32,139 bases of DNA from Thermoanaerobacteraceae bacterium (GTDB lineage Bacteria > Bacillota > JADQBR01): positions 1 through 32,139 of the forward strand of contig JACDOG010000024.1 in NCBI GenBank assembly GCA_017656305.1. Direction: 5' to 3'. Under the pieces are notes generated by a model. The model saw only the letters and a list, made by a program, of their open reading frames with translations. It did not search any database and was not told the DNA's origin. Shown one piece after another: positions 2,438 through 23,868 of this stretch. Position 1 is the stretch's first letter. Each line of letters begins with the position of its first letter. The position numbers and the translations under genes are program-made.

Positions 2438-3877
2438 TTAACCTACCCGGAATCCATGGCCCACAACTCCCGATAAATCAATACCACGTTTGGTCAAAAA
2501 TGAATTCTCCTCAAGTAACTTTATGGATTGCAACATATACTGTTTTTTAAAATCATCAGTACAATGGACTACTTCCCGCATTTTGCCCTGATAATAAACC
2601 TTATAGCAGTTATGAAGTTCCTTAACCAACTGTTCCACTGTCATACGGCGCGGCTTTATAACAGGATCAACAAAGCTGTATTTACTGTAGTCGTACTCAA
2701 AAATATACTCCTTCAATTGACTGTACAAATCAGCATAGGGCCAGGGAGCAATTAACAAGAAGTGAGCGAAATCAGGATTATAATGCTGTGCCAGCTGCAA
2801 GGTTTCGCTTATTGTTTCCGGCGTTTCGTCCGGCATTCCGATGACAAAAGAGCACTCCGTGATAATGCCGGCCTGGTTCAACAAGTCAAGTGCTTGCTTA
2901 GACTGTTCACACTTAATGTTTTTCTTGAACTGTGCTAAACGCTCGTTACTTGTGGCCTCCACCCCGACGTAAATATGAATTACTCCAGCCTTCCTGTATT
3001 TTTCCAAAATATCCGCATCCCGTAAAATATCTTCCACACAGGTTTCAAACATCAGGTATATTCCCAAGTCCCTTTCAATCAGCATGTCCAGTACGGTTTC
3101 CCAGCGCTGGCGATTTTTGCTAGGGTACTCGTCCGACAGCATTACGGCTTCCACGCCGAATCTTTCTTTAAGCATTTGCAGTTCATCGACAAAACTTTCG
3201 GCACTGCGTTCCCGGTAGGTACGCTGCCAAAATTTCTGCTGCGAGCAGAAACTGCAGGCATTAAGACACCCTCGTGAGGAATTCACCAAAGCCAGTCGTG
3301 TTCCGGGAAAGACTTCAAAGCTGTAGTCCTCCCAATCCAGCAGGTCCCAGGCAGGAATTAACCGGTCTAAATCTTTAATGAAAGGTCTGGCAGGTGTGGA
3401 AATTACCCTGCCGTCCTTGAGGAAAGCAACTCCCTTAACCTTTTCCACGTTCCCGTTTGCCTGCAGGCAGTTCAACAATTCAGGGAATGTTTCCTCGCCT
3501 TCTCCTCTAATTACAAAATCAAGTATCCCGGCATAATTATGCAGCAGTTCCTGGTAACAAAAATTGGCATGAATACCGCCTATCACAGTAATAATATCCG
3601 CACTGACGTCTTTGGCAATTTTTAGTACCTCCATAGCGCTGTTCACTGAAGCGGTATAAGCGGTGGAAGCCACTACATCCGGTTTTCCCCGTTCGATATG
3701 AGCGGCAATCTGCGTCATATCATGGTCTTTCATCATGGCATCATATATTTCCACATCAAAACCTGCCTGTCGGAGATGTCCCGCCAGGTAGACAAAACCA
3801 AGATGCGGACACCGGCATGCCGTTTCTACCACCCCGGTATGAAAAGGAGGAGTAATCAGCATTACCTTTTTCATCAT
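2438..3877 (-). CDS. B12-binding-domain radical SAM enzyme (BchE-like architecture), substrate unknown
   Basis: The N-terminal part (about 1-145) is a Rossmann-like cobalamin-binding domain, with a start typical of the family (KKVMLITPPF) and VIGGIHANF in the usual GG position. The radical SAM domain follows, with the [4Fe-4S] motif CLNACSFC at about residues 204-211 and an aromatic-rich sequence after it. Length, about 479 aa, is typical for BchE/P-methylase-like proteins, which methylate or rearrange unreactive carbons. No substrate can be assigned. I chose the ATG at 3877 rather than the one at 3883 because AAAGGGG then sits 6 bases ahead. It follows ccsA closely (26 bp) and precedes the GGDEF/HD-GYP gene, so it belongs to the cytochrome transcript. 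A role in modifying haem, a quinone or a cytochrome residue is possible but is only inference from context. Confidence 0.85.
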   Translation of the reverse strand: MMKKVMLITPPFHTGVVETACRCPHLGFVYLAGHLRQAGFDVEIYDAMMKDHDMTQIAAHIERGKPDVVASTAYTASVNSAMEVLKIAKDVSADIITVIGGIHANFCYQELLHNYAGILDFVIRGEGEETFPELLNCLQANGNVEKVKGVAFLKDGRVISTPARPFIKDLDRLIPAWDLLDWEDYSFEVFPGTRLALVNSSRGCLNACSFCSQQKFWQRTYRERSAESFVDELQMLKERFGVEAVMLSDEYPSKNRQRWETVLDMLIERDLGIYLMFETCVEDILRDADILEKYRKAGVIHIYVGVEATSNERLAQFKKNIKCEQSKQALDLLNQAGIITECSFVIGMPDETPETISETLQLAQHYNPDFAHFLLIAPWPYADLYSQLKEYIFEYDYSKYSFVDPVIKPRRMTVEQLVKELHNCYKVYYQGKMREVVHCTDDFKKQYMLQSIKLLEENSFLTKRGIDLSGVVGHGFRVG

Positions 3878-3903
3878 GCCCATCCCCTTTCTGCCAGCAA
3901 AAG

Positions 3904-4752
3904 TTAGTTGGTGTATCCGGCATGGTTAGTAGTATAAATGTATCCTATACCAAACAATACAAATATCAATACCATCAATCCCAACAAGTTTAACCAGGCA
4001 GCCTTATGGCCCTTCCACCCGTGAATGCGGTAAAGGTGCAGGTAGATACCATAAATAAACCAGGTAATAAGAGACCAAGTTTCAATGGGATCCCAGCCCC
4101 AAAAAACGCCCCAGGCCTGGTTGGCCCATATTGACCCGGCTATAATCATTACCCCGATAAACAAAAAACCCAGTCCCGCAAAACGGTAGCTCAAGTCATC
4201 CAGCACGTCCAAATCAGGCAGAGCATGCCATAGGTTGGCAGCTCTTGCTTTACGCCGTTCAACACGACCTTTGATTAAGTAGAGAGCGGCTGCAGCAGCC
4301 GACACCAGGCAGGATGAATAAGCCAGCTTGGCAAATAAGATGTGCACTACCAGCCAGTAAGTCTGAAAGCTTCCAGGTAGAGTACGTATTTCCGGTGAAG
4401 ACAGGACACCGTAGCCCAAAACCAAAAAAGAAACAGGCATAATAACAGCACCAAGCAATTCCGTTTTCCGGTAACGCCATTGAATAAACAGAAACAATAC
4501 CACTCCAAGCCACACGTCAGACATTACTACCTCAAACCGGTTCAAATACGGCCCGTGCCCCGCCGCTATCCAGCGCAGCAGAATAGCGGCACTGTGCGGG
4601 AGCAGCCCCGCCACAACCGCAACTCTGGCCCACACTTTAACTTTATCCTTGCGGAAAACCAAACTGATAATATACAATACCGAGCTAACGGCATAAAGGC
4701 CCACAGCCACCCAAAGTAATAATACCTGGGTTTTGACGTCCACCTGAATCAC
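3904..4752 (-). CDS. ccsA: Cytochrome c biogenesis protein CcsA (ResC), System II haem handling
   Basis: This 282-aa polytopic membrane protein has about eight hydrophobic segments. It carries the tryptophan-rich WWD-type motif VFWGWDPIETWSLI near residues 214-227 (approximate), the haem-presenting signature of the CcsA/CcmC/CcmF superfamily. With ResB/Ccs1 it forms the System II synthetase that exports haem and ligates it to CXXCH motifs outside the membrane. The start is GTG, overlapping the resB stop by four bases (GTGA), with GGGGAG upstream, so the two are translationally coupled. It serves the flanking cytochrome genes, which together carry 43 CXXCH motifs in intact reading frames. Nomenclature varies (CcsB/ResC in other systems). 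Confidence 0.95.
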   Translation of the reverse strand: MIQVDVKTQVLLLWVAVGLYAVSSVLYIISLVFRKDKVKVWARVAVVAGLLPHSAAILLRWIAAGHGPYLNRFEVVMSDVWLGVVLFLFIQWRYRKTELLGAVIMPVSFLVLGYGVLSSPEIRTLPGSFQTYWLVVHILFAKLAYSSCLVSAAAAALYLIKGRVERRKARAANLWHALPDLDVLDDLSYRFAGLGFLFIGVMIIAGSIWANQAWGVFWGWDPIETWSLITWFIYGIYLHLYRIHGWKGHKAAWLNLLGLMVLIFVLFGIGYIYTTNHAGYTN

Positions 4753-6131
4753 CAGCTTTCTCCCCTAATTATTCGTTTAATACCGGTTAACTCTCTTTCA
4801 AACAGGTGCGGGTGAAGCCGCGCAGCCCCACTGACGTCCAGTACATCACCGTTTTCTGTCCTTTCTAGGGAAACTACGACTCGACGGGGTACCAGCAAGT
4901 ACAGTACAGCCACCCCGGCTATGCTTAACCAAGAGCCGAAGACCATCACCGGAACACCCCAATCTTTGGTGACCCAAAAGCCCAGCCAGCGGTTTAACTC
5001 AGCAAATTCAACCTTTAACCCGTCTACTTTAATTTCACCTCCCAAAAGCAGCAGTTGGGATCCCATAAATCCCTTTTCACTGCTGACCATAAGAAATAAC
5101 CCCGGGTTTTTCGGCTGCGTCGAACCATTGATGAATTTACCATTAGGCAGTTGCCGCAGGTCAGGAAACAGTATGGCATCAAAGGTCAAACCAAAGTCCT
5201 CAAGTGAAAAGGCCTTACTGTGCTTGACCCTGCCATTAACCACGGACCTGTCAAAGTTGATATGATACTTTCTCACCAGCTGCCCCCGGTCATTATAAAA
5301 GTCTAACACCAGAGTATAGCCTTGCTTGGCTAAAACAAACTTCATTCCTTGATAAGTAAAAGGATGGGCCCTGTCAACTTCCACTTTTCTTACAATTTCA
5401 CCGTCCTGGACAATCTCCACAGTACCCCTGGCCATGTAATTATTTTCACTTTCATCCCACTCTTCTTCCACCTTCTTCAAGGTCAGCTCGAATCCTGAAT
5501 GCCTCTCAGGGTACAAAAGGCTTTCCTCAATCTGGAAGTAGTTTTCATGAGTATCAACAAATGTCTGTCCTTCAGTTAACTCCACCGCTCCTTTCATATT
5601 AACCAGCACACTGGTCAACACTCCCAAAAGAATTACCAGCAGCCCGCCGTGAAAGACAATGGACCCCCAGTCCCCCAACCGACTGCGGCATAACACTGTG
5701 ACATCTTTCCCAGCAAAGCACGTAGCCATTTCCCTGCGGTAGCCATTTTCTGTTAAATATTGTACAGCCTTATTCACCGCCTCCTTACCGTCAGCAACTG
5801 GCAGTGAAAGCCTGGGATTTGCCATGGTTAGCGGTACCTTTTCCCGCCTTTTTCGCAGTACTTTAACCTGGTCAATGGTACAAACAAGCGTATTAAGAAA
5901 CAAAAGCACCACCAGTAAGCCAAACCACCAGGAGGTAAATACCTCCGTGATACCCAGGGTTTGAACCCAACGGGCCATGTTTGGGTGGGCAGCGCCCCAT
6001 GCTGCAAACTTACCATCACCAGGCAATTCCTGCTGGGGAATGCTTACCCCCAGCAGGGTTGCCACGGTAAGCAGTATGATTAGAATCAAAGCTAGTTTTA
6101 CAGAACGAAATAATTGCCATAATGCTGTCAT
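4749..6131 (-). CDS. resB: Cytochrome c biogenesis protein ResB (Ccs1)
   Basis: The 460-aa protein has the ResB layout: three transmembrane helices in the first third (around residues 10-30, 67-88 and 152-175), a large extracytoplasmic domain (about 180-400), and a final helix near 400-420 followed by a short cytoplasmic tail. It chaperones apocytochrome and delivers reduced haem with CcsA for thioether ligation. The ATG start has GGAG seven bases ahead. It lies 32 bp after the 15-haem cytochrome gene, consistent with maturation machinery expressed together with its substrate. No dedicated thioredoxin-like ResA or CcdA is encoded in this window, so thiol reduction must be provided elsewhere. 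Confidence 0.93.
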   Translation of the reverse strand: MTALWQLFRSVKLALILIILLTVATLLGVSIPQQELPGDGKFAAWGAAHPNMARWVQTLGITEVFTSWWFGLLVVLLFLNTLVCTIDQVKVLRKRREKVPLTMANPRLSLPVADGKEAVNKAVQYLTENGYRREMATCFAGKDVTVLCRSRLGDWGSIVFHGGLLVILLGVLTSVLVNMKGAVELTEGQTFVDTHENYFQIEESLLYPERHSGFELTLKKVEEEWDESENNYMARGTVEIVQDGEIVRKVEVDRAHPFTYQGMKFVLAKQGYTLVLDFYNDRGQLVRKYHINFDRSVVNGRVKHSKAFSLEDFGLTFDAILFPDLRQLPNGKFINGSTQPKNPGLFLMVSSEKGFMGSQLLLLGGEIKVDGLKVEFAELNRWLGFWVTKDWGVPVMVFGSWLSIAGVAVLYLLVPRRVVVSLERTENGDVLDVSGAARLHPHLFERELTGIKRIIRGESW

Positions 6132-6163
6132 TGCTTAACTCCAGATATTAAAGTTTTGAGTTG

Positions 6164-9016
6164 CTAATGGTCACCTGTATGAGTTGCAGAACAGTCTTTT
6201 TTAGTGTAATTGCCGCTATTTGGCACATAACCTGTCAGTTTTGAAGTCGGGCTGGCAAATGGCGGTCCGTCGGATTGAATGGCAATTAGATGAGGCCGCG
6301 GTCCGCCGTGAGGTGTCATACCGTGACAGTCCATACAGCCGGCTTTTTTATGGTCACCTATTAAATGTAAGTTTTCTTTTTTGTCATCAGTAAATCCGGT
6401 ATTATTATCTCTTCGTTTGTCACCTCCACGATAGGTCGTGTAGTCATGACACTGGAAACAGAGATGGCTTGACGTATCGTAACCCGCCCGTCCAGTGTCT
6501 TCCGTGTACGGGGCCTTCAGGATATTTTTATTATTGGACCCGTGAACATTTCTCGGACTGGCCGGGTTTTCACTGCCATGGCAGTCGGTACAGGTCATCA
6601 TGGAATCCGGTGCCCACCCGTTTACCAGGGAAGCGGAATAGTCCCTGCCGTTATCGTGATACTCATTCTTCCCTACCGCCTCTATGGGGTGATAAGAAGG
6701 ATTGTTGGGATTAAAATCCCGCGCCACGTCTGTCTGCCCCGGAGGCGGTGTTGAACCGTAACTAAAACTGGAATGGCACTTGTAACAAAGCTCATATTCA
6801 TTGGTAATGGCTTTTACGAATATATACCCCGGAGAGTCAGGGGGCAAAATAGTCCACGCCGGGCGTACCGCCGGGTCGGTAGTTACCTGCACCCCGCTGA
6901 CGTTTCTCACGTATCCCGATGCCATCGGTGCGTTAACAGGCGTATCATTGGCCGCATGGGGATCGTGACAGTCGACACATTCCGCATGCCTGTCGGCAGC
7001 AGGCATATTATTATAGTTTTCATCATTACTGTGCTTACCCGACGTAGTTAAAGTTGGGTGTGTATATGCCTTGGTTGTAAAATCAGGCTTGACGTCAATC
7101 ACCCCGGGATAGCTGCCGTTATGGCAGCTATTACACCGGTTGTCCGCCGTTTCCGTGTCCTCCGCCTGGTTAACCAGCGAAGCGTAATTGGCCCCGTGTT
7201 CATCATGACACTGCGTACATTTTATTGAGGCAGCACCATGGCCTGATGAACCGTAAGTAGCAGCCTTGTTCCATCCTCCAGCATTGGTTGTAATATCCTT
7301 ACTTGGAAAAACAACGCTATTGGGCACAAAACTATTCACGTTGGCAACCTCCGTCGGCGGTGCACCGTCATGACACTTGAGACAAAAATCAGTAATATTA
7401 CCGATAGTGACATTTCCAGTAGCAGTACCGTCTTGAGTAAATACATTCTTGGTATTGTCCGGGTCAGAAAGGTCAGAATAGGACAATCCCTGTCCCAGGC
7501 TAACAGAACCCACCGCATGCGGGCCATGGCAGTTGGTACACCCCAACACTACTTCCGGTGCAGATCCCGTCAAGCTATGGGTTGAACCCGGACGCTGGTA
7601 CTCGGCTTTAATGTCACGCCCGCTCATGGAATTCGCTGCATCATCATGACAGTTATAACAGAGAGTATCCCCAATTGCCAATAACAGCTGCTCGTTGGGC
7701 GACGCGTGCTTGTCATGGCATTTGACACACGTTATTTGGGTGCCGGATGCAGGCTGTAACACCGTTTTGGTCTCGTCATAATGGGCCGCATTGATATTAC
7801 TATGGTCACCCAACGTATCCTCCCAATAGGTATCCGTCGGACCTGTAAAGTTACGGTCATTTATACCGTGGCAGGACAGGCAGAATTCTTTCCCTTTATA
7901 ATAATAGTTGCCTCCGTCACTGGCCCGCAGGAGCTTGGGATAAAGGTTGCCGGGATTATTAGGGTCTTCATCCCCGTGTGGGTTATGGCAGCTGGCACAC
8001 TCTATGGCACCGTTGATTCCTAAATTACCCGTATCCTTTACAGGATGAAAGCTAACATTCCCGCTGTTGCTGTCAAATAAAGCCTGAACGTTATAGTTAC
8101 TACCTGTCCCGTCATGGCAGGTATAGCAAACACCGGTTATAGTTGTTTGAGTTAACAGGTCACTACCGGTTGCAGCATGACTGCTGTGACAGGAAGCACA
8201 GGCATCGGTATTTTCCATGTATAACCCGTGGGGACCTTCAACTGCGGGATTGGTACTACGGGTAAAAGCACGCTTTGCACCCGTTGTCGCACTGTCAGTA
8301 TTACTGAAAACCGATGTATTGCCTGCACTGTCATAAGCCTGAACCTTATAGTAATAAGTAGTATTCGCCTGCAACCCGTCATCAATAAACGTCGTGTTAC
8401 TGGCCGTACTTACTTTGCTGAAATTAACATTATCGGTACTGCGATATATCTTATAACCTGCGATACCCACATCATCGGTACTCCCAGACATAGTTAATTT
8501 CAGCTGGTAACTCATAACGTTACCCTGACCGTCCGTTACCTGCCTTACTGTCAGAGTAGGCGCAGTGGGTGCAGTCTCGTCAACAGTAAATGTCCACGTA
8601 TAATCTGCAGACAAAGCGCTACCCGCAAGGTCCTTTACGCCATTGGTACCGCCCTTAACAGTTACTGTATAAGTAGCGTTATTGGTTAGCGCGGCACCCG
8701 GTTGAAAGGAAGCCTGGTTATTATGACTGTCATAACTAACACTGCCGTTGATATTGCCCGCCCCATCATTAACTAAGAAAGTAGAACTGTTGATAGTAGC
8801 ACTGTCCATACTCTCACTGAATGTTACTCTTACAACAGTATTTGTACTGGCATTTTTTGCGCCTTCTCCCGGTGTGGTGCTAACTACAGTCGGGGGTGTG
8901 GTATCCGCCGCAAAGGCGCTGTTTTTCGCCGCAACTGAAATAGAAACGACAAGCAGCAACATGAACATGAGCATTTTCACAAAAGTAAATATTCCTTTGC
9001 TCCTCAAAAGTATCAC
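6164..9016 (-). CDS. Secreted multihaem cytochrome, 15 CXXCH plus a terminal CXXTH, with Ig-like and Fn3 domains
   Basis: The protein is about 950 aa. Numbered from the longest frame (GTG at 9025), it has a signal peptide ending near AFAA (residue 40), an SbsA-type Ig-like (Big_5) domain at about 41-148, a fibronectin type III domain at about 151-248, and then a haem-rich region from 276 to the end. I count 15 CXXCH motifs, many as CXXCHxxH (CASCHSSH, CASCHNPH, CTNCHGPH, CTQCHDEH, CVDCHDPH), the paired-CXXCH style of extracellular cytochromes. The last residues contain CSATH (945-949), where Thr replaces the second haem cysteine. Likely role: cell-surface electron conductor or terminal reductase. 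The start is uncertain: GTG at 9016 has AGGTG six bases ahead, and GTG at 9025 and 8980 are alternatives. Maturation genes follow directly. Confidence 0.92.
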   Translation of the reverse strand: MILLRSKGIFTFVKMLMFMLLLVVSISVAAKNSAFAADTTPPTVVSTTPGEGAKNASTNTVVRVTFSESMDSATINSSTFLVNDGAGNINGSVSYDSHNNQASFQPGAALTNNATYTVTVKGGTNGVKDLAGSALSADYTWTFTVDETAPTAPTLTVRQVTDGQGNVMSYQLKLTMSGSTDDVGIAGYKIYRSTDNVNFSKVSTASNTTFIDDGLQANTTYYYKVQAYDSAGNTSVFSNTDSATTGAKRAFTRSTNPAVEGPHGLYMENTDACASCHSSHAATGSDLLTQTTITGVCYTCHDGTGSNYNVQALFDSNSGNVSFHPVKDTGNLGINGAIECASCHNPHGDEDPNNPGNLYPKLLRASDGGNYYYKGKEFCLSCHGINDRNFTGPTDTYWEDTLGDHSNINAAHYDETKTVLQPASGTQITCVKCHDKHASPNEQLLLAIGDTLCYNCHDDAANSMSGRDIKAEYQRPGSTHSLTGSAPEVVLGCTNCHGPHAVGSVSLGQGLSYSDLSDPDNTKNVFTQDGTATGNVTIGNITDFCLKCHDGAPPTEVANVNSFVPNSVVFPSKDITTNAGGWNKAATYGSSGHGAASIKCTQCHDEHGANYASLVNQAEDTETADNRCNSCHNGSYPGVIDVKPDFTTKAYTHPTLTTSGKHSNDENYNNMPAADRHAECVDCHDPHAANDTPVNAPMASGYVRNVSGVQVTTDPAVRPAWTILPPDSPGYIFVKAITNEYELCYKCHSSFSYGSTPPPGQTDVARDFNPNNPSYHPIEAVGKNEYHDNGRDYSASLVNGWAPDSMMTCTDCHGSENPASPRNVHGSNNKNILKAPYTEDTGRAGYDTSSHLCFQCHDYTTYRGGDKRRDNNTGFTDDKKENLHLIGDHKKAGCMDCHGMTPHGGPRPHLIAIQSDGPPFASPTSKLTGYVPNSGNYTKKDCSATHTGDH

Positions 9017-9026
9017 CCCCGGCACC

Positions 9027-9088
9027 TATGGGCCAAGCAATATACTTCTTTCTGCCTGGACCTAATATATTCTAAGGTGTGGCCCATA
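9027..9088 (-). promoter_or_regulatory. Intercistronic inverted repeat ahead of the 15-haem cytochrome
   Basis: A perfect 9-bp inverted repeat (TATGGGCCA at 9027-9035, TGGCCCATA at 9080-9088) spans nearly the whole gap between the Fn3-protein stop and the cytochrome start. In RNA it could fold with a 44-base loop just ahead of the start, affecting stability or initiation. There is no T tract, so it is not a classical terminator. Function is inferred only. Confidence 0.4.
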
Positions 9089-9090
9089 AG

Positions 9091-12072
9091 TTACTTGACA
9101 AGTTGAATGTACAGCGGCCTATTCACCTGATTTATTCCCGGCGGGGGCGTCAATCCCGACCCGCCTTGATCAATCCTTACCAACAGGTACCCGTAATCAC
9201 TCTGCCAACTTTGACCAGGGTTTTGCGGCAAACGAAACTTAACCTGCGTTCCTAACGGCACAGGATACCATTCATCATTATGGATCCAGGTCTTGCCCTG
9301 GTCCAGAGAAAAGTCAACGTGACCACCCTGTGGTGATTTAATGCTTACCTCTAGATTATTGGTGCCATCTTGCGTAACATTGCCGAAGGCATCGTAGGCA
9401 TTTATTGTTGCCCGGTAAATCCTGGCAGGTTTTATGGTGATTTTTTCAGGGTCCCAACCAACATAACTCGGTTTTCCAGGTTCTACTTCAACTTTCCAGG
9501 TGCGTGAAACGTCCACCTGCTGCAGTGGTGCACTGGGAACCCTCAGGTCCCGGTACTGGAGAACTGCCGTTACCCGATTGATACCGGGTACAGTACTTGC
9601 AGCCAACTTACCGTAAACACTTCCGGTCCTGTCCGGTCTCGGAATTCCTAAAGGAATGCCCTGGACGTCAACAACCTGAACCCTACCGTCAGCCTGAAAA
9701 TAGCCTACCTTTGGTTTTCTCTTCCAGGCCCCGGGAACTTTTTTCGAATGCTCAACCGCAAACACTACCCTGGCCTCAGGAGCGGTCACCGGCTGCCCGT
9801 TGTGGTCGGTGATAACTGCCCGAAAACTTACTTCTTCCCCGGTTGCAACACGTCTTTTCAGTCCCTTCAATTCTACATTCCAGTCCAGCGCTCTAACCCA
9901 GGTCGTTGCTCTAACAGAAACCGCGCCCAACTGGTCTGGAGTAAATTCAACAATGATTTCCGCCTTACCGGGGCTGTTGCTGGTAAATTCCCCCACCACA
10001 GTTGTTGGGGAAACAGCTTCAAGTTTCGTAAACTCACTGAAATCGGTAGCATACCTCCAGGTGCCCGATACCGGTACGGGATTCCCGTAAACATCTTCTG
10101 CCACCGTTTTTATTCTGATGGTTTTGTTCTTACTATCCACAAATAATGCAGAACTGCTTAACTCTATACGCAGCCTGTCCGGAACTCCCGCAGTTGGATG
10201 CGTCACCTTGACAGCAGCACCACGGTAGGGCTTCCCGCTGGCAAGCTCCGAAGGTTGGCTCTCATTTCCGCTTGTATCCACTGCTGTCAAATAGTAATGG
10301 TACGTCTTTCCTTGTTTCAAACCGTCATCTGCATACATGGTATCCTTTATTAACTTGTCGTTTACTTTCTCAAAATCATCTGCCGCACCGCTGCCTGACC
10401 GGTACAGGTTATATCCTGCAAGGTCTTCTTCAGTATTCCTCTGCCACGACAGGACCAATTCGTCACCGCTCCACGGATCGTCAACGGACAAGCCAGTGGG
10501 CACTGCCGGCGGTGTTTTGTCCTGGGAAATACCCTGAACTTCTGCAGGTTTGGACTCATTGCCCAGGTCATCAAATGCAGTCAGCCGGTACCTATATGCG
10601 GTGTTTCGTGTTAGACCGGTATCCAAATACTGCGTCTGTGCCTTATCTGCCGTACCAGCGATAGTTGCCACTAGTTGGAAATTATCCGTACCGCTTTCCG
10701 CCCGGTACAGGTGATACCCTGCCAGGTCGGCATCACCGTTTGGCAACCACCTGATGAGCAACTCCGTACCTATGCCGGGATTATCAACTGTCAGGCCGCG
10801 GGGCACACCTGGTGGTGTAGTATCCAATGTCGGCATACCAGATGCAACAGCACTGGGCTCCGAACTGTTACCTGCAATATCCACAGCTATCAAGTAGTAG
10901 TAGTAAATAGTATCATTTTCAACAGTTTCATCGGTAAATTTGGTGATATCTCCCGCCAGTTCAACCACTTCTACAAAAGGCCCCTCCGGTGTTGGAGCCC
11001 TGTAGAGCCGGTACCCGTTTAGGTCATTCTCAGTATTGGGGGTCCAGCTCAGTAACAGTTTCCCGCCTGTCCTAAGGTCCGTGACCTTCAGCCCAACAGG
11101 CGAGGCAGGAGGCACTTCATCCTTAGTGGGAATTACCGTTACTATGTCAGAAGGTGCTGATTCGTTACCTGCTTTATCCAGTGCCGTTACATAATATCTA
11201 TATTCTGCACCCGTGCTCAGACCGGCATCCAGATAAACATTTTCAAATACACTGGCTATTTTACTGAAGCCAGTGTCTCCGTAAACTGCCCGGTAGACAT
11301 TATATTTGTTCAGATCCTGTTCACTATTTGCTTCCCAGCTCAACCTCACACTTTCGCCAGTACCTAAATCCAATGCAGTTAACCCCTGCGGTTTGCCAGG
11401 TGGCTCTCTGTCAGGAACAGAAACTGACAGATGTACTTCATCGTAGGCCACATAGGTATTGGCGCCTGACATAGAAGCATACAGCTGAATTTGATACCGG
11501 CCTTTTCCCGTAAATACATTGGAGATATCCAGGTTCTCTACCTTGTTCCATTCGTCACCGTAAACAGCGCCGGATACGGTCAGTGTGTCTCCGGCATCCT
11601 GCCAAACCGTCACCGGCCGCCGGCCGCCCGGTGGAAGTATCCTTATTTTCGCCGCTGCTTCCTCGCCAAGTTCCACTGCTTTTTGATATGCGAAACTTAA
11701 ATTTACCACAACCTCATCCCTTGATATGTTAAAGTCCTGATATATGTACCCGCTAACCGTTCTGTTATCAGAGTAAACCGTATCCTTTACCGTGGCCTTC
11801 TTTGGCGGAACAGACATCTTTACCGCCCCGCCCCGTCCGGATACTATCTGCTCACCTGCGGCTATCTTGCCGGAAAATCCCTGGGAAATCCAATCAACCA
11901 AGAGTTCTCCCACATCATTCCATTCCATTAAGTCATCCGAAAAACTGCCGTTGTCAAGCACACTCCCGGCGCTTACCAGCGGTATTGCAACCAACAAGGA
12001 AGCAATCATACTAAATATTATAGTTATCTTAACCATTCCCAAACGGCTGATGAACTGTTTAACTTTCGTCAC
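9091..12072 (-). CDS. Secreted protein with four fibronectin type III domains, no cysteine
   Basis: The 993-aa protein has a signal peptide (hydrophobic stretch about 14-33, ending LVSAGS). An N-terminal jelly-roll-like module follows (about 35-225), then four Fn3 repeats, each opening with a proline-rich linker (PPGKPQGL, PPASPVGL, PPGVPRGL, PPAVPTGL) and containing an LxxYNLYR-like strand (about 225-620). The C-terminal third (about 625-990) resembles bacterial Ig-like/invasin-type modules. I see no CXXCH and no cysteine at all, and no SLH or LPXTG anchor. The start is GTG with a strong AGGAGGTG seven bases upstream. It sits between an NHL protein and the 15-haem cytochrome, which shares Fn3-type modules. 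It probably forms a surface scaffold or adhesive partner for the cytochromes. That role is inferred from context. Confidence 0.85.
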   Translation of the reverse strand: MTKVKQFISRLGMVKITIIFSMIASLLVAIPLVSAGSVLDNGSFSDDLMEWNDVGELLVDWISQGFSGKIAAGEQIVSGRGGAVKMSVPPKKATVKDTVYSDNRTVSGYIYQDFNISRDEVVVNLSFAYQKAVELGEEAAAKIRILPPGGRRPVTVWQDAGDTLTVSGAVYGDEWNKVENLDISNVFTGKGRYQIQLYASMSGANTYVAYDEVHLSVSVPDREPPGKPQGLTALDLGTGESVRLSWEANSEQDLNKYNVYRAVYGDTGFSKIASVFENVYLDAGLSTGAEYRYYVTALDKAGNESAPSDIVTVIPTKDEVPPASPVGLKVTDLRTGGKLLLSWTPNTENDLNGYRLYRAPTPEGPFVEVVELAGDITKFTDETVENDTIYYYYLIAVDIAGNSSEPSAVASGMPTLDTTPPGVPRGLTVDNPGIGTELLIRWLPNGDADLAGYHLYRAESGTDNFQLVATIAGTADKAQTQYLDTGLTRNTAYRYRLTAFDDLGNESKPAEVQGISQDKTPPAVPTGLSVDDPWSGDELVLSWQRNTEEDLAGYNLYRSGSGAADDFEKVNDKLIKDTMYADDGLKQGKTYHYYLTAVDTSGNESQPSELASGKPYRGAAVKVTHPTAGVPDRLRIELSSSALFVDSKNKTIRIKTVAEDVYGNPVPVSGTWRYATDFSEFTKLEAVSPTTVVGEFTSNSPGKAEIIVEFTPDQLGAVSVRATTWVRALDWNVELKGLKRRVATGEEVSFRAVITDHNGQPVTAPEARVVFAVEHSKKVPGAWKRKPKVGYFQADGRVQVVDVQGIPLGIPRPDRTGSVYGKLAASTVPGINRVTAVLQYRDLRVPSAPLQQVDVSRTWKVEVEPGKPSYVGWDPEKITIKPARIYRATINAYDAFGNVTQDGTNNLEVSIKSPQGGHVDFSLDQGKTWIHNDEWYPVPLGTQVKFRLPQNPGQSWQSDYGYLLVRIDQGGSGLTPPPGINQVNRPLYIQLVK

Positions 12073-12106
12073 TTTAGTTCACCTCCTGTTTGATTGCAAT
12101 ACCTTA

Positions 12107-13114
12107 TTATTGGTCCAGATGAATATATACCATCACCCTATTACTGTCCCTGTCGGCAATATATAAATTACCGGATTGGTCGGCAGCTAGACCGTTGGGA
12201 AAATTAAACCGGCTTTTTTCTGAACTTTCAGACCCCCACACCAGCCCCTTGGCAGCAGCCAAATCATAACTGGCTATCCGGTGAGTTATTGTATCTGCAA
12301 TGTGCAACAATCCCCGCTGCCTATCAAGGGCCAGGCCCCTGGGAGTAACCAGCTTTCTTTCATTGATAGACTTGAGGCTGCGTTTATACTCACCGCTCAA
12401 ACTAAATTCCTGAATTCTACCATTATTGGTATCTGCCACATAAATGCGGTCATTTTGTTCATCTACAGCTATACCATTAGCAAACTTAAACTGTCCCGCT
12501 GCGGTGCCTTCTTTACCAAACTGGTGGAAAAACCTGCCGCTGGCATCAAAGACGAGCACTCGCTGGCCGAGCACATCACTTACATAAAGTTTACCGCTAT
12601 CACCAACGGCCAGAGCTGCCGGCTTAATAGTACCCAGCACTTTCCCGTCTTTTTCCACCGGCAGTTGGTACAGATATTCTCCTTCCAAATGCCAAACCTG
12701 CACCCGGCCATTATTAAAATCTGCAACGTACAACAGTTGTTGGGAATCATCAACAGCAACAGCAACAGGGTAATTCATAGCAACACCTTCTATTGACGAC
12801 TGTCCGTACTGCCGGAGTACTTTGCCGGTTATATCAAACATCACTACCCTGTTGTTTCCTGAATCCGCAACCAACACGCGCCCATCGGCGGTTACAGCAA
12901 CACCTAAAGGCTTGTCCAGCCCCTTTCCTGATATTATTCGCATCTCACCGCCTTGAAACGGAAAATCAATGGGAGGATTATTGGGAGCAATAACCTGCTG
13001 CCAGAGCTCACCTGTCGTTGAAGGTTGCAGTTTCAAATACAATCCAGCTATAGTTAACAACAGCACACAAACCAAAAAGAAAATTATCATGCCTTTGATG
13101 CCAACGCGTCCCAA
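12107..13114 (-). CDS. Membrane-anchored NHL-repeat beta-propeller protein
   Basis: This 335-aa protein has an N-terminal signal anchor (about residues 8-28) followed by about 280 residues of NHL repeats. Each repeat carries the pattern 'PxGVAVD..G.LYVADxxNNRVxVF', for example VLVADSGNNRV, IYVADTNNGRI and LYIADRDSNRV, so a six-bladed propeller outside the membrane is expected. There is no enzymatic motif. NHL propellers usually bind proteins or ligands. The start is TTG, chosen because GGGAGG lies seven bases upstream. It lies between the hexahaem cytochrome and the Fn3 protein, and a second NHL protein lies on the other side of the cytochrome. An assembly or docking role for the cytochrome is plausible but unproven. 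Confidence 0.88.
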   Translation of the reverse strand: MGRVGIKGMIIFFLVCVLLLTIAGLYLKLQPSTTGELWQQVIAPNNPPIDFPFQGGEMRIISGKGLDKPLGVAVTADGRVLVADSGNNRVVMFDITGKVLRQYGQSSIEGVAMNYPVAVAVDDSQQLLYVADFNNGRVQVWHLEGEYLYQLPVEKDGKVLGTIKPAALAVGDSGKLYVSDVLGQRVLVFDASGRFFHQFGKEGTAAGQFKFANGIAVDEQNDRIYVADTNNGRIQEFSLSGEYKRSLKSINERKLVTPRGLALDRQRGLLHIADTITHRIASYDLAAAKGLVWGSESSEKSRFNFPNGLAADQSGNLYIADRDSNRVMVYIHLDQ

Positions 13115-13153
13115 TTAACTCCCTCCCGTACAAAGTTGCGACTGAATTTTTTT

Positions 13154-14140
13154 CTATTTATTATGACACACCTGACAAACACCGCGGTTATCCAAACGCA
13201 GTAACGTACTGGATGTACTTGTACTGGTACCGTCAGCACGATTGAACGTCACGGTGTTGGTAGCTTTGGTTCCGTGAGCATAATGACAAGTCAGGCACAT
13301 TACCTGCTGGTTTGCTGCGGTACCATCACTGGACTGCAACGGCATTAAAGGACTGGGTTGGGATAGAGTAGCGATGGTCCAACTGTTTTCATTCGTGCCA
13401 GCATAAAGACTGGGATCCATTCCCACACGGTGACGTGCAAAACTACCATAAGTACCTAATGCAGTATCATCTCCAGAACCAGCACCTGTCTGCTTAAAGT
13501 CCTGATGGCATGCACCGCAAAACTCATTCCAACCAGACTGGTAACTAACGGCCTCATCACCTAGTACTGTTCCTGCTGCAATGTCCAGTGTTGGTGGTGT
13601 GGCACTGATATCAACGCCATTCACATTAACCCTCAGCGCACGCGCTGTGTTTGCGGTATTATGCGGGTCGTGACAGCTGGCACAGGTTAATTCCATGTAG
13701 TTACCAGCATTTGTATCATAACCGGGAACCCAAACCGTAGTGCCGTTTGCAGCGTCAACGTCGTGCTCGGAAGTAACAGCGGCAAATACAGGTGTTGCAC
13801 CCTCGGTGGTTACCACCTGGTCAAAACCGCCAGCACTGGAAGCGTAAGTACCTGTTCCAGTTACAATAGCACCGTTAATTACGTCATACTTGCTCTGTCC
13901 GCCGCTCTTATGGCAGTATACGCATGTCCGGTAGACATCATTCTGCGTGCCGGCCTCCAGATTTTGAATCAAGTTCTTTCCAGCTGCAGCGTGGGTGCTG
14001 TGACATTGCCCGCAGGCAGCGGTGTCAGCAGTATAGCCCCCGTGAATGTTACTGGAAATTGTGTAAGCTGCGGCAACCCCAACTCCCAAAACCAATGTAA
14101 ACACCAGGACCATGGATAAGATTAACAACTGCCTTTTCAT
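13154..14140 (-). CDS. Secreted hexahaem c-type cytochrome
   Basis: The 328-aa protein starts at the ATG at 14140 (GAGGTG seven bases ahead) with a clear signal peptide MKRQLLILSM... ending at AAAYT (about residue 27). An upstream GTG at 14188 would add 16 charged residues before the signal sequence and is less likely. Six haem motifs lie at about residues 43 (CGQCH), 73 (CVYCH), 153 (CASCH), 208 (CGACH), 282 (CLTCH) and 322 (CQVCH). Motifs one, three and five are CXXCHxxH, the last His being a candidate axial ligand for a neighbouring haem. There is no membrane anchor after cleavage, so it is secreted or wall-associated. It is flanked by two NHL propeller genes. Possible roles are an electron shuttle across the wall or a subunit of a cytochrome filament. 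Confidence 0.92.
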   Translation of the reverse strand: MKRQLLILSMVLVFTLVLGVGVAAAYTISSNIHGGYTADTAACGQCHSTHAAAGKNLIQNLEAGTQNDVYRTCVYCHKSGGQSKYDVINGAIVTGTGTYASSAGGFDQVVTTEGATPVFAAVTSEHDVDAANGTTVWVPGYDTNAGNYMELTCASCHDPHNTANTARALRVNVNGVDISATPPTLDIAAGTVLGDEAVSYQSGWNEFCGACHQDFKQTGAGSGDDTALGTYGSFARHRVGMDPSLYAGTNENSWTIATLSQPSPLMPLQSSDGTAANQQVMCLTCHYAHGTKATNTVTFNRADGTSTSTSSTLLRLDNRGVCQVCHNK

Positions 14141-19570: not shown

Positions 19571-19602
19571 CAAAAAAGGCGCACCGCAAAATCCGGCACG
19601 CC
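19571..19602 (-). terminator. Rho-independent terminator after sdhB
   Basis: On the minus strand a 9-bp stem with two G-U pairs (GGCGTGCCG / CGGTGCGCC, 7-base loop) is followed directly by TTTTTT. It begins 16 bases after the sdhB stop and separates sdhCAB from the cytochrome cluster. Confidence 0.8.
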
Positions 19603-19617
19603 TCCAAAGTAACCACA

Positions 19618-20370
19618 CTATTTATAAAGCCAGCGTTTTAACCCATAAAGTACGGTTTGCTTGTTCAAATCGGCAATGGATACCGTCAAGGGTATTTCCT
19701 TGGGACATGCCTTGGCACAGTTCTGCGCGTTGCCGCACTCGGTAATACCGCCCGGTCCCATGATGGCATCCAGCCGCTTTTCCTTATCCATCTTACCGAT
19801 GGGATGCGCATTGAACAAACGTACCTGGTTCAGTGCCTGCGGTCCGATAAATGCCGATTTTTCATTATAGTTGGGACAGGACTCCAGGCAGCAGCCGCAG
19901 GTCATGCAGCGGGACAGCTGGTAGGCCCACTGCCGGGTCTTTTCCGGGAACAGCGGTCCCGGGCCCAGGTCCCAGCTGCCGTCCACATTGACCCAGGCCT
20001 TGACTTTTTTCAAGTAGTCAAACATAATCTGGCGGTCTATCTGCAGGTCCCTGATTACCGGGAATTTGGACAACGGTTCCAGAATGATGGGACTCTTGTC
20101 AATCTTATCAATGAGCGCCGAACATGCCTGGCGCGGCACACCGTTGATGCGCATGGAGCAAGCGCCGCACACCTCTTCCAGACAGTTGCACTCCCATACT
20201 ACGGGAGTGGTTTTCTGCCCATTGGCATTGACAGGATTTTTCCTGATTTCCATCAACACGGAGACTACGTTCATGTTGGGTTTATACGGCACCTTAAACT
20301 CTTCCCAGTAAGGAGCGGAATCCGGGTTATCCTGGCGCTTGATTTTCAGGTGAATGTATTCCCTAGTCAT
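19618..20370 (-). CDS. sdhB: Succinate dehydrogenase/fumarate reductase iron-sulfur subunit
   Basis: The 250-aa electron-transfer subunit links the flavin to the membrane haems. An N-terminal plant-type ferredoxin domain holds the [2Fe-2S] cysteines in WECNCLEEVCGACSM with a later RQAC. The C-terminal domain holds CMTCGCCLESCP ([4Fe-4S]) and CGNAQNCAKACPKE (the remaining cluster ligands). This matches the Bacillus-type SdhB of similar length. Its ATG overlaps the end of sdhA by eight bases, so the two are translationally coupled. Direction (succinate oxidation or fumarate reduction) cannot be settled from sequence. With menaquinone as quinone, either is feasible. Confidence 0.95.
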   Translation of the reverse strand: MTREYIHLKIKRQDNPDSAPYWEEFKVPYKPNMNVVSVLMEIRKNPVNANGQKTTPVVWECNCLEEVCGACSMRINGVPRQACSALIDKIDKSPIILEPLSKFPVIRDLQIDRQIMFDYLKKVKAWVNVDGSWDLGPGPLFPEKTRQWAYQLSRCMTCGCCLESCPNYNEKSAFIGPQALNQVRLFNAHPIGKMDKEKRLDAIMGPGGITECGNAQNCAKACPKEIPLTVSIADLNKQTVLYGLKRWLYK

Positions 20371-22126
20371 TCATGGTCGCCTCCTTATCCACGTCATACT
20401 TCCGTGGTCTCGGCTTGATCAACGAAGTATCCACTTCTTCATATTCAAAGACGGGACCATCGGGAGTATATTTTGCCTTGGTAGTCTTCAGCCAGTTTTC
20501 ATCGTCTCTTTCCGGAAACTCCGGCTTGTAGTGAGCACCACGGCTTTCATTGCGGTTCAGCGCTCCCAGCGTAATCACCCTGGCCAGCTGCAGCATGTTC
20601 CACAGCTGTTTGGTAAACATGACAGCCTGGTTGCCCCATGAAGAGGTATCTTCGATATTTATCTTGTGCCAGCGCTGTATCAATTCCTGCAGCTTTTCAT
20701 CAGTAGCCTTCAACCTGTCATTATAACGCACAACCGTGACGTTTTCCGTCATGATGTCGCCCATTTCCTCATGCAGCTTGTAGGGGTTTTCGTAGCCGTT
20801 CATCTTCAGGATCTTGTCGTGCCATTCCTGCTGGCGTTTGAGTTCACGTTCGAAATGTTTTTTGTCTACATCCTTGGAGGACTTGCTGAGGCCCTCGATG
20901 TAGTCCACCATGGCAGGGCCCGCAACCGTACCGCTGTACAAAGCGGACAGCAGTGAATTTGCACCCAGGCGGTTGGCCCCGTGATACATGTAGTCGCACT
21001 CGCCGGATGCAAACAGACCCGGGATGCAGGTCTGGTGGTTCCAATCAACATGAATACCGCCCATAAAGTAGTGAACTGACGGGAAGATTTTCATCGGTAC
21101 CTTTCTCGGGTCGTCACCGTGGAATTTTTCGTAAATTTCAATGATACCGCCGAGACGGTTATCCAAGAACTCCGGATCCTTATGCGTCAGGTCCAGGTAA
21201 ACCTTGTTTTCCCCGTCAACACCCAGGCCCATTTCCACACATACCTTGAAGATTGCCCGGGCTGCAATATCTCGCGGTACCAGGTTGCCGTAGGCAGGAT
21301 ACCATTCTTCCAGGAAGTACCAGGGCTTCCCGTCCTTGTATGTCCAGATTCTGCCACCTTCACCCCTGGCTGACTCGGACATCAGGCGGTTCTTATCATC
21401 ACCCGGCATTGCCGTGGGGTGTATCTGCACAAACTCGCCGTTGGCATAGTAAACACCCTGCTGGTACACCGCACTGGCAGCACTGCCGGTATTGATCACC
21501 GAGTTGGTACTCTTACCGTAAATCATTCCGGCACCACCAGTGGCCAGAAGCACTGCGTCCGCCACAAACGCCCGAATTTCCATGGTGGCAAGGTCCTGGG
21601 CAATAATACCCCGGCACACGCCCTGGTCATCAATTACCGCGGACAGGAATTCCCAACCTTCATATTTTTTCACCATGCCGGCATCTTCCCACTTGCGCAC
21701 CTGCTCATCACATGCGTAAAGCAACTGCTGGCCGGTAGTAGCCCCGGCAAATACCGTACGCCGCTTCTTCACACCGCCGAAGAGGCGGAGGTCCAGGCGC
21801 CCTTCCGGTGTCCGGCTAAACATGACGCCCATGCGGTCCATGGTATAAATCAAGCCCGGTGCAGCATCGCACATGTTCTTAACCGGCGGCTGGTTTGCCA
21901 AAAAGTCACCGCCGTAAATGGTATCATCAAAATGCTCCCAGGTGGAATCCCCTTCGCCCTTGGTATCCAGCGCCGCGTTAATTCCTCCCTGAGCACAGCA
22001 AGAGTGAGAGCGCTTTACCGGAACAAGAGAAAACAAGTCAACTTTTACTCCTCTTTCTACCGCTTTTATGGTGGCCATTAATCCCGACAGACCACCGCCG
22101 ACTACGATAATCTTTTTTTCAGCCAT
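20363..22126 (-). CDS. sdhA: Succinate dehydrogenase/fumarate reductase flavoprotein subunit
   Basis: This 587-aa FAD enzyme begins with a dinucleotide-binding fold (KKIIVVGGGLSGLMA). The covalent-FAD histidine lies in RSHSCCAQGGINAA (about residues 39-52). The substrate/active-site segments HPTAMPG and SARGEGG are intact, and the C-terminal helical domain is complete. Length fits the Bacillus-type SdhA. It interconverts succinate and fumarate on the cytoplasmic face. A strong AGGAGG precedes the ATG by 11 bases. It lies 18 bp downstream of sdhC and overlaps sdhB. A Sdh complex this close to multihaem cytochromes fits an organism that respires anaerobically via menaquinone. Confidence 0.96.
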   Translation of the reverse strand: MAEKKIIVVGGGLSGLMATIKAVERGVKVDLFSLVPVKRSHSCCAQGGINAALDTKGEGDSTWEHFDDTIYGGDFLANQPPVKNMCDAAPGLIYTMDRMGVMFSRTPEGRLDLRLFGGVKKRRTVFAGATTGQQLLYACDEQVRKWEDAGMVKKYEGWEFLSAVIDDQGVCRGIIAQDLATMEIRAFVADAVLLATGGAGMIYGKSTNSVINTGSAASAVYQQGVYYANGEFVQIHPTAMPGDDKNRLMSESARGEGGRIWTYKDGKPWYFLEEWYPAYGNLVPRDIAARAIFKVCVEMGLGVDGENKVYLDLTHKDPEFLDNRLGGIIEIYEKFHGDDPRKVPMKIFPSVHYFMGGIHVDWNHQTCIPGLFASGECDYMYHGANRLGANSLLSALYSGTVAGPAMVDYIEGLSKSSKDVDKKHFERELKRQQEWHDKILKMNGYENPYKLHEEMGDIMTENVTVVRYNDRLKATDEKLQELIQRWHKINIEDTSSWGNQAVMFTKQLWNMLQLARVITLGALNRNESRGAHYKPEFPERDDENWLKTTKAKYTPDGPVFEYEEVDTSLIKPRPRKYDVDKEATMND

Positions 22127-22144: not shown

Positions 22145-22765
22145 TTATGCCACAAATGCAAATAATGCTTGTAGTCCCATTACTGACAGAATGACAAAGA
22201 TAAAGCCGGTAATCCATCCGAAAACCTGCTGGGCCTTGACACCCACTGCTATACCCCAGTTAATCAGGAATGCCCAGAGGCCGTTGGCAAAGTGGAAGGT
22301 CGAGGCCAGCAAGCCGATAACGTAAAAAGCAAAGATCCATGGATTACTGAGGTGCTCCGCCACCGAAGCAAACGTCACTTCCGTGCCGTACAGAGCCGAG
22401 GAAATCCTTAGCGCCCACAGGTGATAGAGAACAAATACCAGGGTAACCACCGCGGTGACACGCTGCAGGTAAAAGGCCCAGTTGCGGTAATAGTTGTACT
22501 GGAGCACGTTGTTCTTGGCGATGTAGACCACATATAGCCCGTACAGCCCGTGGAATATAATAGGCAAAATAATCAGAAATATCTCGATGTATAGCACGTA
22601 GCTGAGGCTCTGCAGGAACTCAACCTTGGCATTATAAGATTCCGGGCCCTGGTTGGCAAACGAGTTGGTGTAAAGATGCTCCAATAGAAAAAGGCCGATG
22701 GGAATAACGCCAAACAGGGAATGCAGCTTGCGAATAAAAAAATGGTTCTTCTCAAACAGACTCAT
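22145..22765 (-). CDS. sdhC: Succinate dehydrogenase cytochrome b558 subunit (di-haem membrane anchor)
   Basis: The 206-aa membrane protein has five hydrophobic helices, as in the Bacillus subtilis and Wolinella single-anchor type. Candidate haem b ligands are histidines in LEHLY (about 30), IFHGLYG (about 71), LYHLWA (about 114) and TFHFANG (about 158), spaced as expected for two haems, one near each membrane face. It carries electrons between SdhB and menaquinone. The ATG has AAGGAG eight bases upstream. It is the first gene of sdhCAB. No separate SdhD gene follows, as is normal for this type. Confidence 0.94.
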   Translation of the reverse strand: MSLFEKNHFFIRKLHSLFGVIPIGLFLLEHLYTNSFANQGPESYNAKVEFLQSLSYVLYIEIFLIILPIIFHGLYGLYVVYIAKNNVLQYNYYRNWAFYLQRVTAVVTLVFVLYHLWALRISSALYGTEVTFASVAEHLSNPWIFAFYVIGLLASTFHFANGLWAFLINWGIAVGVKAQQVFGWITGFIFVILSVMGLQALFAFVA

Positions 22766-22860
22766 ACACCTGACTCCTTTCGTATAAATGTTATAACTTT
22801 TTTAAGTTTTCGAGAAACTTTGAATAATTCCTGCCTATACCAATTTGTGAAAAAAAGTTT

Positions 22861-22905
22861 TTAACCGTAACCTCTGGGCCAAATATTAGTCCGGCGAGTA
22901 CTCAA
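22861..22905 (-). CDS. Possible 14-codon leader peptide upstream of sdhC
   Basis: A near-perfect Shine-Dalgarno (AAGGAGGT) sits six bases ahead of a TTG that opens a frame of 14 codons, MSTRRTNIWPRGYG, ending in TAA about 95 bases before sdhC. The ribosome binding site is stronger than that of most genes here, which makes translation plausible. No run of a regulatory amino acid is present, so attenuation by a particular amino acid is not obvious. It may couple to RNA folding in the leader. Evidence is limited to the ribosome binding site and position. Confidence 0.35.
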   Translation of the reverse strand: MSTRRTNIWPRGYG

Positions 22906-22956
22906 GATATTACCTCCTTCCCTGTTGCTAATTACCTTTTCTCACCATGTCTTTTA

Positions 22957-22972
22957 AGCAATTATTATGCCA
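22957..22972 (-). promoter_or_regulatory. Sigma-54 (-24/-12) promoter of sdhCAB
   Basis: The minus strand reads TGGCATAATAATTGCT. It has GG and GC separated by exactly 10 bases and matches the consensus TGGCAC-N5-TTGC(A/T) at all positions but one. It lies about 190 bases upstream of sdhC on the correct strand. Initiation would need an enhancer-binding ATPase. The dyad at 23069-23082, about 100 bases upstream, is a candidate activator site. Confidence 0.6.
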
Positions 22973-23104
22973 AAAATCGTTGTTAATAAACTTTTCCCCG
23001 GAAGCTTGATAAAACCAATTCCTGCAGTACTTTTTTACCCCCGGACGCTTCCTATAAGCAGCTTGAAAAACTCACATGAGTTCTATAGTTTAGAAGTATA
23101 AACA

Positions 23105-23154
23105 AATAAAAAAAGGAGCCGTGCTGTTTGCAATAAACAGCATGCGGTTCCTCT
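23105..23154 (-). terminator. Rho-independent terminator of the pst-phoU operon
   Basis: On the minus strand a long stem with a small interior mismatch (AGGAACCG..GCTGTTT / AAACAGC..GGCTCCT, loop ATTGC) is followed by TTTTTTT. It starts about 55 bases after the phoU stop. Confidence 0.85.
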
Positions 23155-23208
23155 TGCCTGCCGAACTTTTAATTCTAATTTTTAGAATATTTCTAATGAT
23201 TATAACCT

Positions 23209-23868
23209 TCACTCATTCAGATCCTGGCGTTTTCCGGTAACCATATATATCACCCGCTCGCCGATATTGGTTGCATGGTCAGCAATTCTTTCCAGGTAGC
23301 GGCTGACAAAGGAAAGGTAAGTTGCCTGCTGGATGGTTTTGGAATCCTCCATCATGTATGTCAGCAACTCCCGCAGTACTTGCAAATGCAGGCTGTCCAC
23401 CTCATCGTCAGCTTCGGCCAGCGTCATGGCCAATTCTACATCCTCATTGACGTAACTGTCAAGACTTTTCCTCACCATATCCTGGGCCAGCTTGGCCATG
23501 CGAGGAATGTCAATCAACGGCTTAATCAAAGGCTGTTCCGCTATCATCATTGTAGCCTTAGCAATATCGCTGGCGTAATCAGCCATGCGTTCCAGGTCAG
23601 TAATGACTTTAAAGGCGACGCTGATCTTGCGCAAATCCTTGGCCATGGGCTGCTGGGTGGCAATCAGTTTCACACACCGGTCCTCAATCTCCAGTTCCAG
23701 GTCATCGATGGCCTCATCGCCCGCGCGCACTTTTTTCGCCTTCTCCACGTCCTGTTCCTTGAGCGCCGTAACGGCCAGATCTATTGCCTCTTCCACCATA
23801 CTACCCATACGCAGTATCTCCTGCTGCAGTTCCTTCAAATCCGCGTGAAAAGTTCTACCAGACGGCAT
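23209..23868 (-). CDS. phoU: Phosphate-specific transport system accessory protein PhoU
   Basis: This 219-aa all-helical protein has two PhoU repeats (about residues 15-105 and 120-205), with the conserved acidic patches in LRKISVAFKVITDLERMADYASD and the second-repeat YLERIADHATNIGE used for metal binding. It dampens Pst transport and PhoR signalling when phosphate is sufficient. The ATG has GAGGTG upstream. It is the last gene of pstSCAB-phoU, 31 bp after pstB, and is followed by a terminator. Confidence 0.96.
   Translation of the reverse strand: MPSGRTFHADLKELQQEILRMGSMVEEAIDLAVTALKEQDVEKAKKVRAGDEAIDDLELEIEDRCVKLIATQQPMAKDLRKISVAFKVITDLERMADYASDIAKATMMIAEQPLIKPLIDIPRMAKLAQDMVRKSLDSYVNEDVELAMTLAEADDEVDSLHLQVLRELLTYMMEDSKTIQQATYLSFVSRYLERIADHATNIGERVIYMVTGKRQDLNE

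Follow-up and report, generated by a model that had tools for sequence, protein, structure and literature searches.

We found that the sequence ahead of the succinate dehydrogenase/fumarate reductase operon sdhCAB of a Thermoanaerobacteraceae bacterium is probably a working sigma-54 promoter with upstream activator sites (UAS), whose activator would be an enhancer-binding protein (EBP) with a Rossmann-like N-terminus and a PAS domain. Judged from sequence comparison, we put the probability of this reading at about 0.85. The window analyzed here is the whole 32,139-nucleotide stretch of contig JACDOG010000024.1. The promoter element reads 5'-TGGCAT-AATAA-TTGCT-3' on the minus strand (22972 to 22957), with the GG at 22971-22970, the GC at 22959-22958, the GG-N10-GC spacing, and both the TGGCAY and TTGCW boxes, in agreement with the initial annotation, which had called it a near-consensus -24/-12 element on the right strand. 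It is located inside the 443-bp gap between phoU and sdhC, 191 bp from sdhC, and is oriented toward sdhC (ATG at 22765), which is followed by sdhA and sdhB (Table 1).

Table 1 Features of the sdhCAB locus, listed in the direction of transcription (positions of the window).
Feature	Position	Strand	Basis
phoU, gene upstream	23209..23868	-	PF01895
UAS1, TTCTAATGATTATAA, 1 mismatch, 227 bp from -24 GG	23191..23205	.	
UAS2, TTCTAATTTTTAGAA, sole exact TTCTAANNNTTAGAA in own genome, 209 bp from -24 GG	23173..23187	.	
Hairpin and U-tract between phoU and the sdhC promoter, probable phoU terminator	23115..23151	-	z = -2.9, 0/200 shuffles fold as well
UAS3, TTCTATAGTTTAGAA, 1 mismatch, centre 117 bp from -24 GG	23081..23095	.	
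Predicted sigma-54 -24/-12 promoter element TGGCATAATAATTGCT	22957..22972	-	sequence; sdhC upstream regions of relatives
Predicted transcription start, ~12 nt after GC	22944..22948	-	inferred from spacing rule
sdhC leader, ~180 nt from predicted start	22766..22946	-	sequence
sdhC, cytochrome b558 subunit	22145..22765	-	TIGR02046 above cut-off
sdhA, flavoprotein	20363..22126	-	NF006392 and TIGR01811 above cut-off
sdhB, iron-sulfur subunit	19618..20370	-	NF006391 above cut-off
Terminator-like hairpin after sdhB	19575..19605	-	2 found in region vs 0.4 expected

The SdhC, SdhA, and SdhB proteins of the window match the corresponding NCBIfam models of the Bacillus subtilis-type SdhCAB (b558, menaquinone), for which, to our knowledge, sigma-54 control is no part of the textbook description. 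The hairpins after phoU and after sdhB suggest that sdhCAB is its own unit. A simple terminator scan listed nothing at the place of the phoU hairpin, probably because its stem is interrupted. Transcription from sigma-54 promoters is expected to start about 12 nt downstream of the GC, and the leader that follows from this start is long. A sigma-A promoter within the leader might therefore give most of the sdhCAB transcription, with the sigma-54 promoter real but secondary. The leader does contain a weak sigma-70-like TTCACA-N16-AATTAT at 22851-22824, but this match is within shuffle expectation, and we consider the explanation unlikely. With 1.3 matches expected, a sigma-70 scan of the region gave two, of which one is on the opposite strand, and an Rfam search of the window found no family at threshold. 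The leader also has a second Shine-Dalgarno-like sequence, GGAAGGAGGT, at 22921-22912, ~155 nt ahead of sdhC. Purine-rich stretches are found at a similar place in the leaders of G001, G002, and G004; a leader peptide with a TTG start after GGAAGGAGGT was considered by eye but is not proposed here, as the short frames behind these stretches look unrelated.

The strict pattern TGGCAYN5TTGCW occurs in the window only at this place (0.18 expected), which by itself is weak evidence because 14 of 100 window shuffles contained at least one strict match. In the whole genome, the strict pattern was found 24 times and its mirrored control four times, and a manual comparison of coordinates showed that eight of the 24 matches have an EBP AAA+ domain no more than 1.2 kb away. 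The initial annotation had pointed to rpoN and an EBP gene as further signs of sigma-54 control, and the genome carries both: rpoN has a single match (PF04552, E 5.1e-64, 495-aa open frame), and EBP genes are represented by 15 strong and 7 weak PF00158 matches.

Searches with SdhC gave matches in 15 of 61 relatives, in all three available genomes of the class, and in 81 of 398 genomes of the phylum, as well as five loci in a named collection. From a subset of the matching genomes, 44 sdhC loci were taken, after L038, which matched weakly and only in part, and L043, which shares its contig with L025, had been dropped, and 700 bp upstream of each was searched for the sigma-54 pattern at no more than one mismatch. 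A strict sense site was found in eight loci (L024, which is our own, L025, L026, L027, L040, L041, L050, and L051) and a site with one mismatch in one (L039), the genomes of L040 and L041 being near-identical, and likewise those of L028 and L029. Among the same 44 loci, the antisense control gave two matches at one mismatch, identical in sequence and from a pair of near-identical genomes, and the mirror control one. The expected conservation of the element upstream of sdhC in relatives thus holds for nine of the 44 loci, and the other 35 lack it. It should be noted that the 700-bp limit misses distant operon heads, since G130, G013, G235, and G259 were counted as negative yet have a strict site before fumAB. 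All nine site-bearing loci have SdhC identities of at least 52%, and many loci of 52-61% identity have no site. The arrangement of pst genes, phoU, site, and sdhCAB is common to G000 (our own genome), G001, G002, and G004 (pst genes outside the window named by eye). The G002 site begins 397 bp from sdhC, and by eye the interval between the site (at 10340 of L092) and sdhC includes an additional ~200 bp that look palindromic and may be a small inserted element. Sites directly ahead of sdhC were found in families f1, f3, f5, f66, and f75, and sites in EBP neighbourhoods extended this to f12 and f4. The view that sigma-54 control of sdh is unusual therefore has to be narrowed, as the arrangement recurs in several families of the phylum.

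Motif discovery was performed on the 260 bp upstream of the -24 at 12 sites (eight of sdh and four of EBP clusters of the PrpR_N type), which contained no flank of Rossmann-PAS EBP genes. The spaced dyad TTCTA-N5-TAGAA was shared by four of the 12 sequences, against three for the best shared dyad in 200 single-base shuffles. Another dyad, AACTCA-N2-TGAGTT, was seen only upstream of the window's sdhC and was rejected, being absent among the dyads listed for the other 11 sequences. The extended palindrome, TTCTAA-N3-TTAGAA, is present in three copies ahead of sdhC, 117, 209, and 227 bp from the -24. Sigma-54 upstream activator sites are typically located roughly 100-200 bp from the -24. At no more than one mismatch, the genome has five copies, three of them ahead of sdhC, and the window alone has these three against 0.07 expected. 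The other two look like chance and were rejected as targets: the copy at C3:174832 separates a strict sigma-54 site from the gene that this site heads, and the copy at C8:55104 is surrounded by unnamed genes, with a gene that by eye is recombinase-like a few kb away.

Across seven genomes, the palindrome, with 68 places, was less frequent than its mirror, with 125. The raw count thus shows no excess, and the signal resides in the positions: by coordinates, 11 of the 68 places are upstream of sdhC, 10 in EBP, sucC, or fumA promoter gaps, and 47 elsewhere. Within 600 bp upstream of the 44 sdhC loci, we found 11 copies at no more than one mismatch in the nine sigma-54-positive loci, five of which carry them, and one copy, in one locus, among the 35 negative loci; the mirror was found in neither group. 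The successive spacings (UAS1 to UAS2, UAS2 to UAS3, and UAS3 to the promoter) were similar in the four genomes G000, G001, G004, and G090, with values of 18/92/123, 18/91/120, 18/90/109, and 29/92/126. The sdh copies of G001 are all at two mismatches, and G006 and G052 have one two-mismatch copy each. No UAS was found within 600 bp upstream of the second sdhC of G004.

Our first candidate for the activator was a different EBP, the PrpR_N-PAS-AAA-HTH_8 regulator at G000:C2:2515-4431. PrpR is a sigma-54 EBP that activates propionate catabolism, and relatives of the G000 regulator are linked to paralogous sdhCAB clusters that have a sigma-54 site in G006 (strict), G001, and G004 (one mismatch each). 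However, TTCTA/TAGAA dyads occurred in none of the four promoters of its clusters, and the palindrome is instead concentrated around genes of the Rossmann-PAS EBP, which lacks a PrpR_N match. The two proteins share 39% identity over PAS-AAA-HTH, and their HTH segments visibly differ. We therefore rejected the PrpR_N-type regulator as the activator here, a role we judge quite improbable for it. Its own locus (L073, G000:C2:1-14000, 2515-13694) contains, after the regulator, a DctP-type TRAP transporter and an adenylosuccinate-lyase-like enzyme, then an additional SdhA that has neither SdhC nor SdhB next to it, fumAB, and an MmgE/PrpD protein. It looks like a cluster for uptake and cleavage of a C4-type substrate; the relatives in G001, G004, and G006 are in clusters with full sdhCAB.

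The likely activator of the sdhC promoter, judged by motif and neighbourhood, is the Rossmann-PAS EBP encoded at G000:C1:13891-15597 (568 aa), which matches PF00158 and PF02954 above cut-off and carries GESGTGKE (Walker A) and GAFTGA. Its first 243 residues have a single match in its own genome at E 1e-20 and match 70 of the 398 genomes at this threshold, many only partially. We read the neighbourhoods of 24 such genes in 22 of the 70 genomes. The common type has a Rossmann-like N-terminus, PAS, sigma-54 AAA+, and HTH_8; an alignment of the Rossmann-PAS family showed strong conservation of the C-terminal HTH, and a GAFTGA search gave no match in four of the 24 genes.

The palindrome adjoins EBP genes in G001, G002, G004, G006, and G124. 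Within 300 bp on each side of the 24 EBP genes (14.4 kb), 23 copies at no more than one mismatch were found and none of the mirror, compared with three copies each of palindrome and mirror in the surroundings of the same genes (244.8 kb). Five of the 24 genes, with eight copies, had been located via an adjacent palindrome and are not independent, because the palindrome itself led to them. The remaining 19 genes, picked by protein similarity or nearness to sdhC, had 15 copies in nine genes, and with no mirror copy in the whole set the argument for a link between EBP and palindrome holds. In our own genome, the EBP flanks have two copies at two mismatches each, one per side.

The palindrome by itself names no protein, and it might belong to a different regulator, either a repressor or a separate activator, that shares the sigma-54 targets. 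At least one copy at one mismatch was present in 14 of the 24 EBP genes; the other 10 had none within 300 bp, and two (G090 and G234) had no UAS even at two mismatches. Nevertheless, the palindrome tracks the Rossmann-PAS EBP family and sigma-54 promoters in many families, and the conserved HTH likewise argues against a different regulator, which we regard as very unlikely.

The neighbourhoods point to a common set of targets for the Rossmann-PAS EBP. In our own genome, the EBP gene is followed by sucC, sucD, methylmalonyl-CoA mutase, carboxyltransferase, two small subunits (named by eye), and an OadB-like subunit, and then by three UAS at two mismatches, the sigma-54 site TGGAATCAAAATTGCT (one mismatch), fumA, fumB, and malic enzyme; no sigma-54 site was found in the EBP-sucC gap. 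In G006 and G124, UAS and a strict site separate the EBP gene from fumAB-malic enzyme (malic enzyme named by eye). The order in G130, G097, G013, G235, and G259 is EBP gene, UAS, strict sigma-54 site, and fumAB-sdhC-sdhA, and a malic-enzyme-like gene lies beyond these; in G154, UAS, a strict site, and sdhCAB come after the EBP gene. In these six genomes, sdhB is clear in G259 and G154 and hidden behind other frames in G130, G097, G013, and G235; sdhC, fumA, and malic enzyme of G130 were checked by search, and the remaining fumAB and sdh neighbours were named by eye. The EBPs of our genome and G130 share 63% identity over 561 residues. A related EBP that lacks the Rossmann part is followed, in G118 and G150, by UAS and a site (one mismatch in G118, strict in G150), fumAB, and later sdhCAB. 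In G278 and G230, the EBP gene abuts sdhC with UAS before the EBP gene, and no sigma-54 site at one mismatch or less was found. Likewise, the stretch from the EBP gene to the next gene showed no such site on its coding strand in G369, G209, G234, and for the second EBP of G154.

A Rossmann-PAS EBP is present in all eight genomes that carry a strict site directly ahead of sdhC (G000, G001, G002, G004, G006, G052, G090, and G124); in G130, G097, G013, G235, G259, and G154, the pairing of EBP and site is by construction, as these were chosen for an EBP near sdhC. Genomes without an sdhC site that are also outside the 70 EBP genomes include G117, G083, G043, G048, G152, G086, G120, and G302, together with G076, G193, G303, G051, G008, G024, G054, and G031, a comparison that assumes the same 398 genomes in the SdhC and EBP searches. 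That the element is a background match, with sdhCAB read from an ordinary housekeeping promoter, could draw on the 14 shuffles and the four mirror matches above, but we reject it as highly improbable given the recurrence of the element with spaced UAS copies ahead of sdhC in diverged sequences and a sigma-70 scan close to expectation.

Compared with the GxGxxG motif and the acidic residue after the second strand that mark NAD(H)-binding Rossmann domains, the N-terminal domain of our EBP has GAGKGG and D35 as candidate counterparts. G10, G12, G15, and D35 are invariant in 11 chosen sequences, and the left-out sequences of G004, G234, G251, and G177 depart from this. The Pfam model GFO_IDH_MocA matches our EBP weakly and under the cut-off, is weak in several members, and is over the cut-off in the G002 EBP. 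A profile of the 11 N-termini had its best PDB match with 7z3s, an acetaldehyde dehydrogenase (E 1.2e-7). Since the domain resembles NAD-binding domains, a redox or metabolite signal to the EBP is plausible. A Rossmann-PAS EBP paralogue in G001 (L121, G001:C39, 6286-7995) lies next to what by eye looks like a transporter gene and has a single UAS-like palindrome, with two mismatches, and the EBP family may thus have other targets.

We propose that the activator, of the Rossmann-PAS-AAA+ type with a Fis-type HTH, would bind the three TTCTAA-N3-TTAGAA copies upstream of sdhC, loop to the RNA polymerase-sigma-54 holoenzyme, and open the sdhC promoter. The same activator probably controls fumAB-malic enzyme and is linked to sucCD-methylmalonyl-CoA mutase, so that sdhCAB, in the dehydrogenase or fumarate reductase direction, would be switched with the rest of the succinate/methylmalonyl-CoA (propionate) route. 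The promoter element and palindromes, their recurrence and spacing, the gene linkage of the regulator, and the co-occurrence are seen in the sequences, and from these we infer binding and activation by the EBP, the place where transcription starts, and a signal that would be either a metabolite of the pathway or the NAD(H) state. In this and related bacteria, the gene of the likely activator is surrounded by fumarase, succinyl-CoA, and methylmalonyl-CoA genes, so that the succinate pathway is probably under a single switch, with sdhCAB as one probable member of a sigma-54 succinate/methylmalonyl-CoA regulon. The dedicated EBP expected by the initial annotation thus has a well-supported candidate with its own palindrome, but one that would serve this wider regulon and not sdh alone. 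More tentatively, and as a possibility we would not yet favour, the EBPs may form a new sigma-54 activator family with an NAD(H)-type Rossmann domain and PAS that reads redox or metabolite state and switches the whole reversible succinate-propionate route, including the membrane succinate dehydrogenase, as one regulon in many Bacillota, among which there may be syntrophic propionate oxidisers.

In Pelotomaculum thermopropionicum, the mmc cluster described by Kosaka in 2006 is said to carry a putative regulator gene, with SDH outside the cluster. The cluster holds the transcarboxylase, epimerase, mutase, succinyl-CoA synthase, and fumarase genes together and rises together with Sdh I in coculture, and the passages on this species describe no sigma-54 control or UAS for sdh (PMC6046458). 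In methylmalonyl-CoA propionate oxidation, a passage in PMC10308238 gives succinate oxidation as the most unfavourable oxidation step. A shared sigma-54 switch, if true, would account for the co-expression of the methylmalonyl-CoA cluster and an sdh operon far away from it, and a Rossmann-PAS activator, if true, would be an unusual input for sigma-54. The specific regulator, binding site, and promoter named here make the proposal directly testable in a cultivable relative. The reconstructed sigma-54/EBP regulons of Clostridiales follow the same logic of EBP, binding sites, -24/-12 promoter, and catabolic operon, but Table 1 of that study has no group with sdhCAB, fumAB, sucCD, or methylmalonyl-CoA mutase as a target, and the words 'succinate', 'fumarate', and 'sdh' are absent from its main text (PMC6615313). 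Of two further studies, the main text of one mentions dicarboxylate transport and does not contain 'sdhA' or 'sdhC' (PMC12316311), and a sigma-54 protein cluster in the other belongs to hydrogenase neighbourhoods (PMC12727194). Titles and abstract openings in the open-licence literature included none on sigma-54 control of sdhCAB by such an activator, and an earlier description may exist elsewhere.

Elsewhere in the window, the region 6164-12072 encodes large proteins, with NrfH-like and NHL-type proteins in the neighbourhood. The protein at 6164-9025 combines doubled CXXCH heme motifs with a region that has a weak match to an exoglucanase model.
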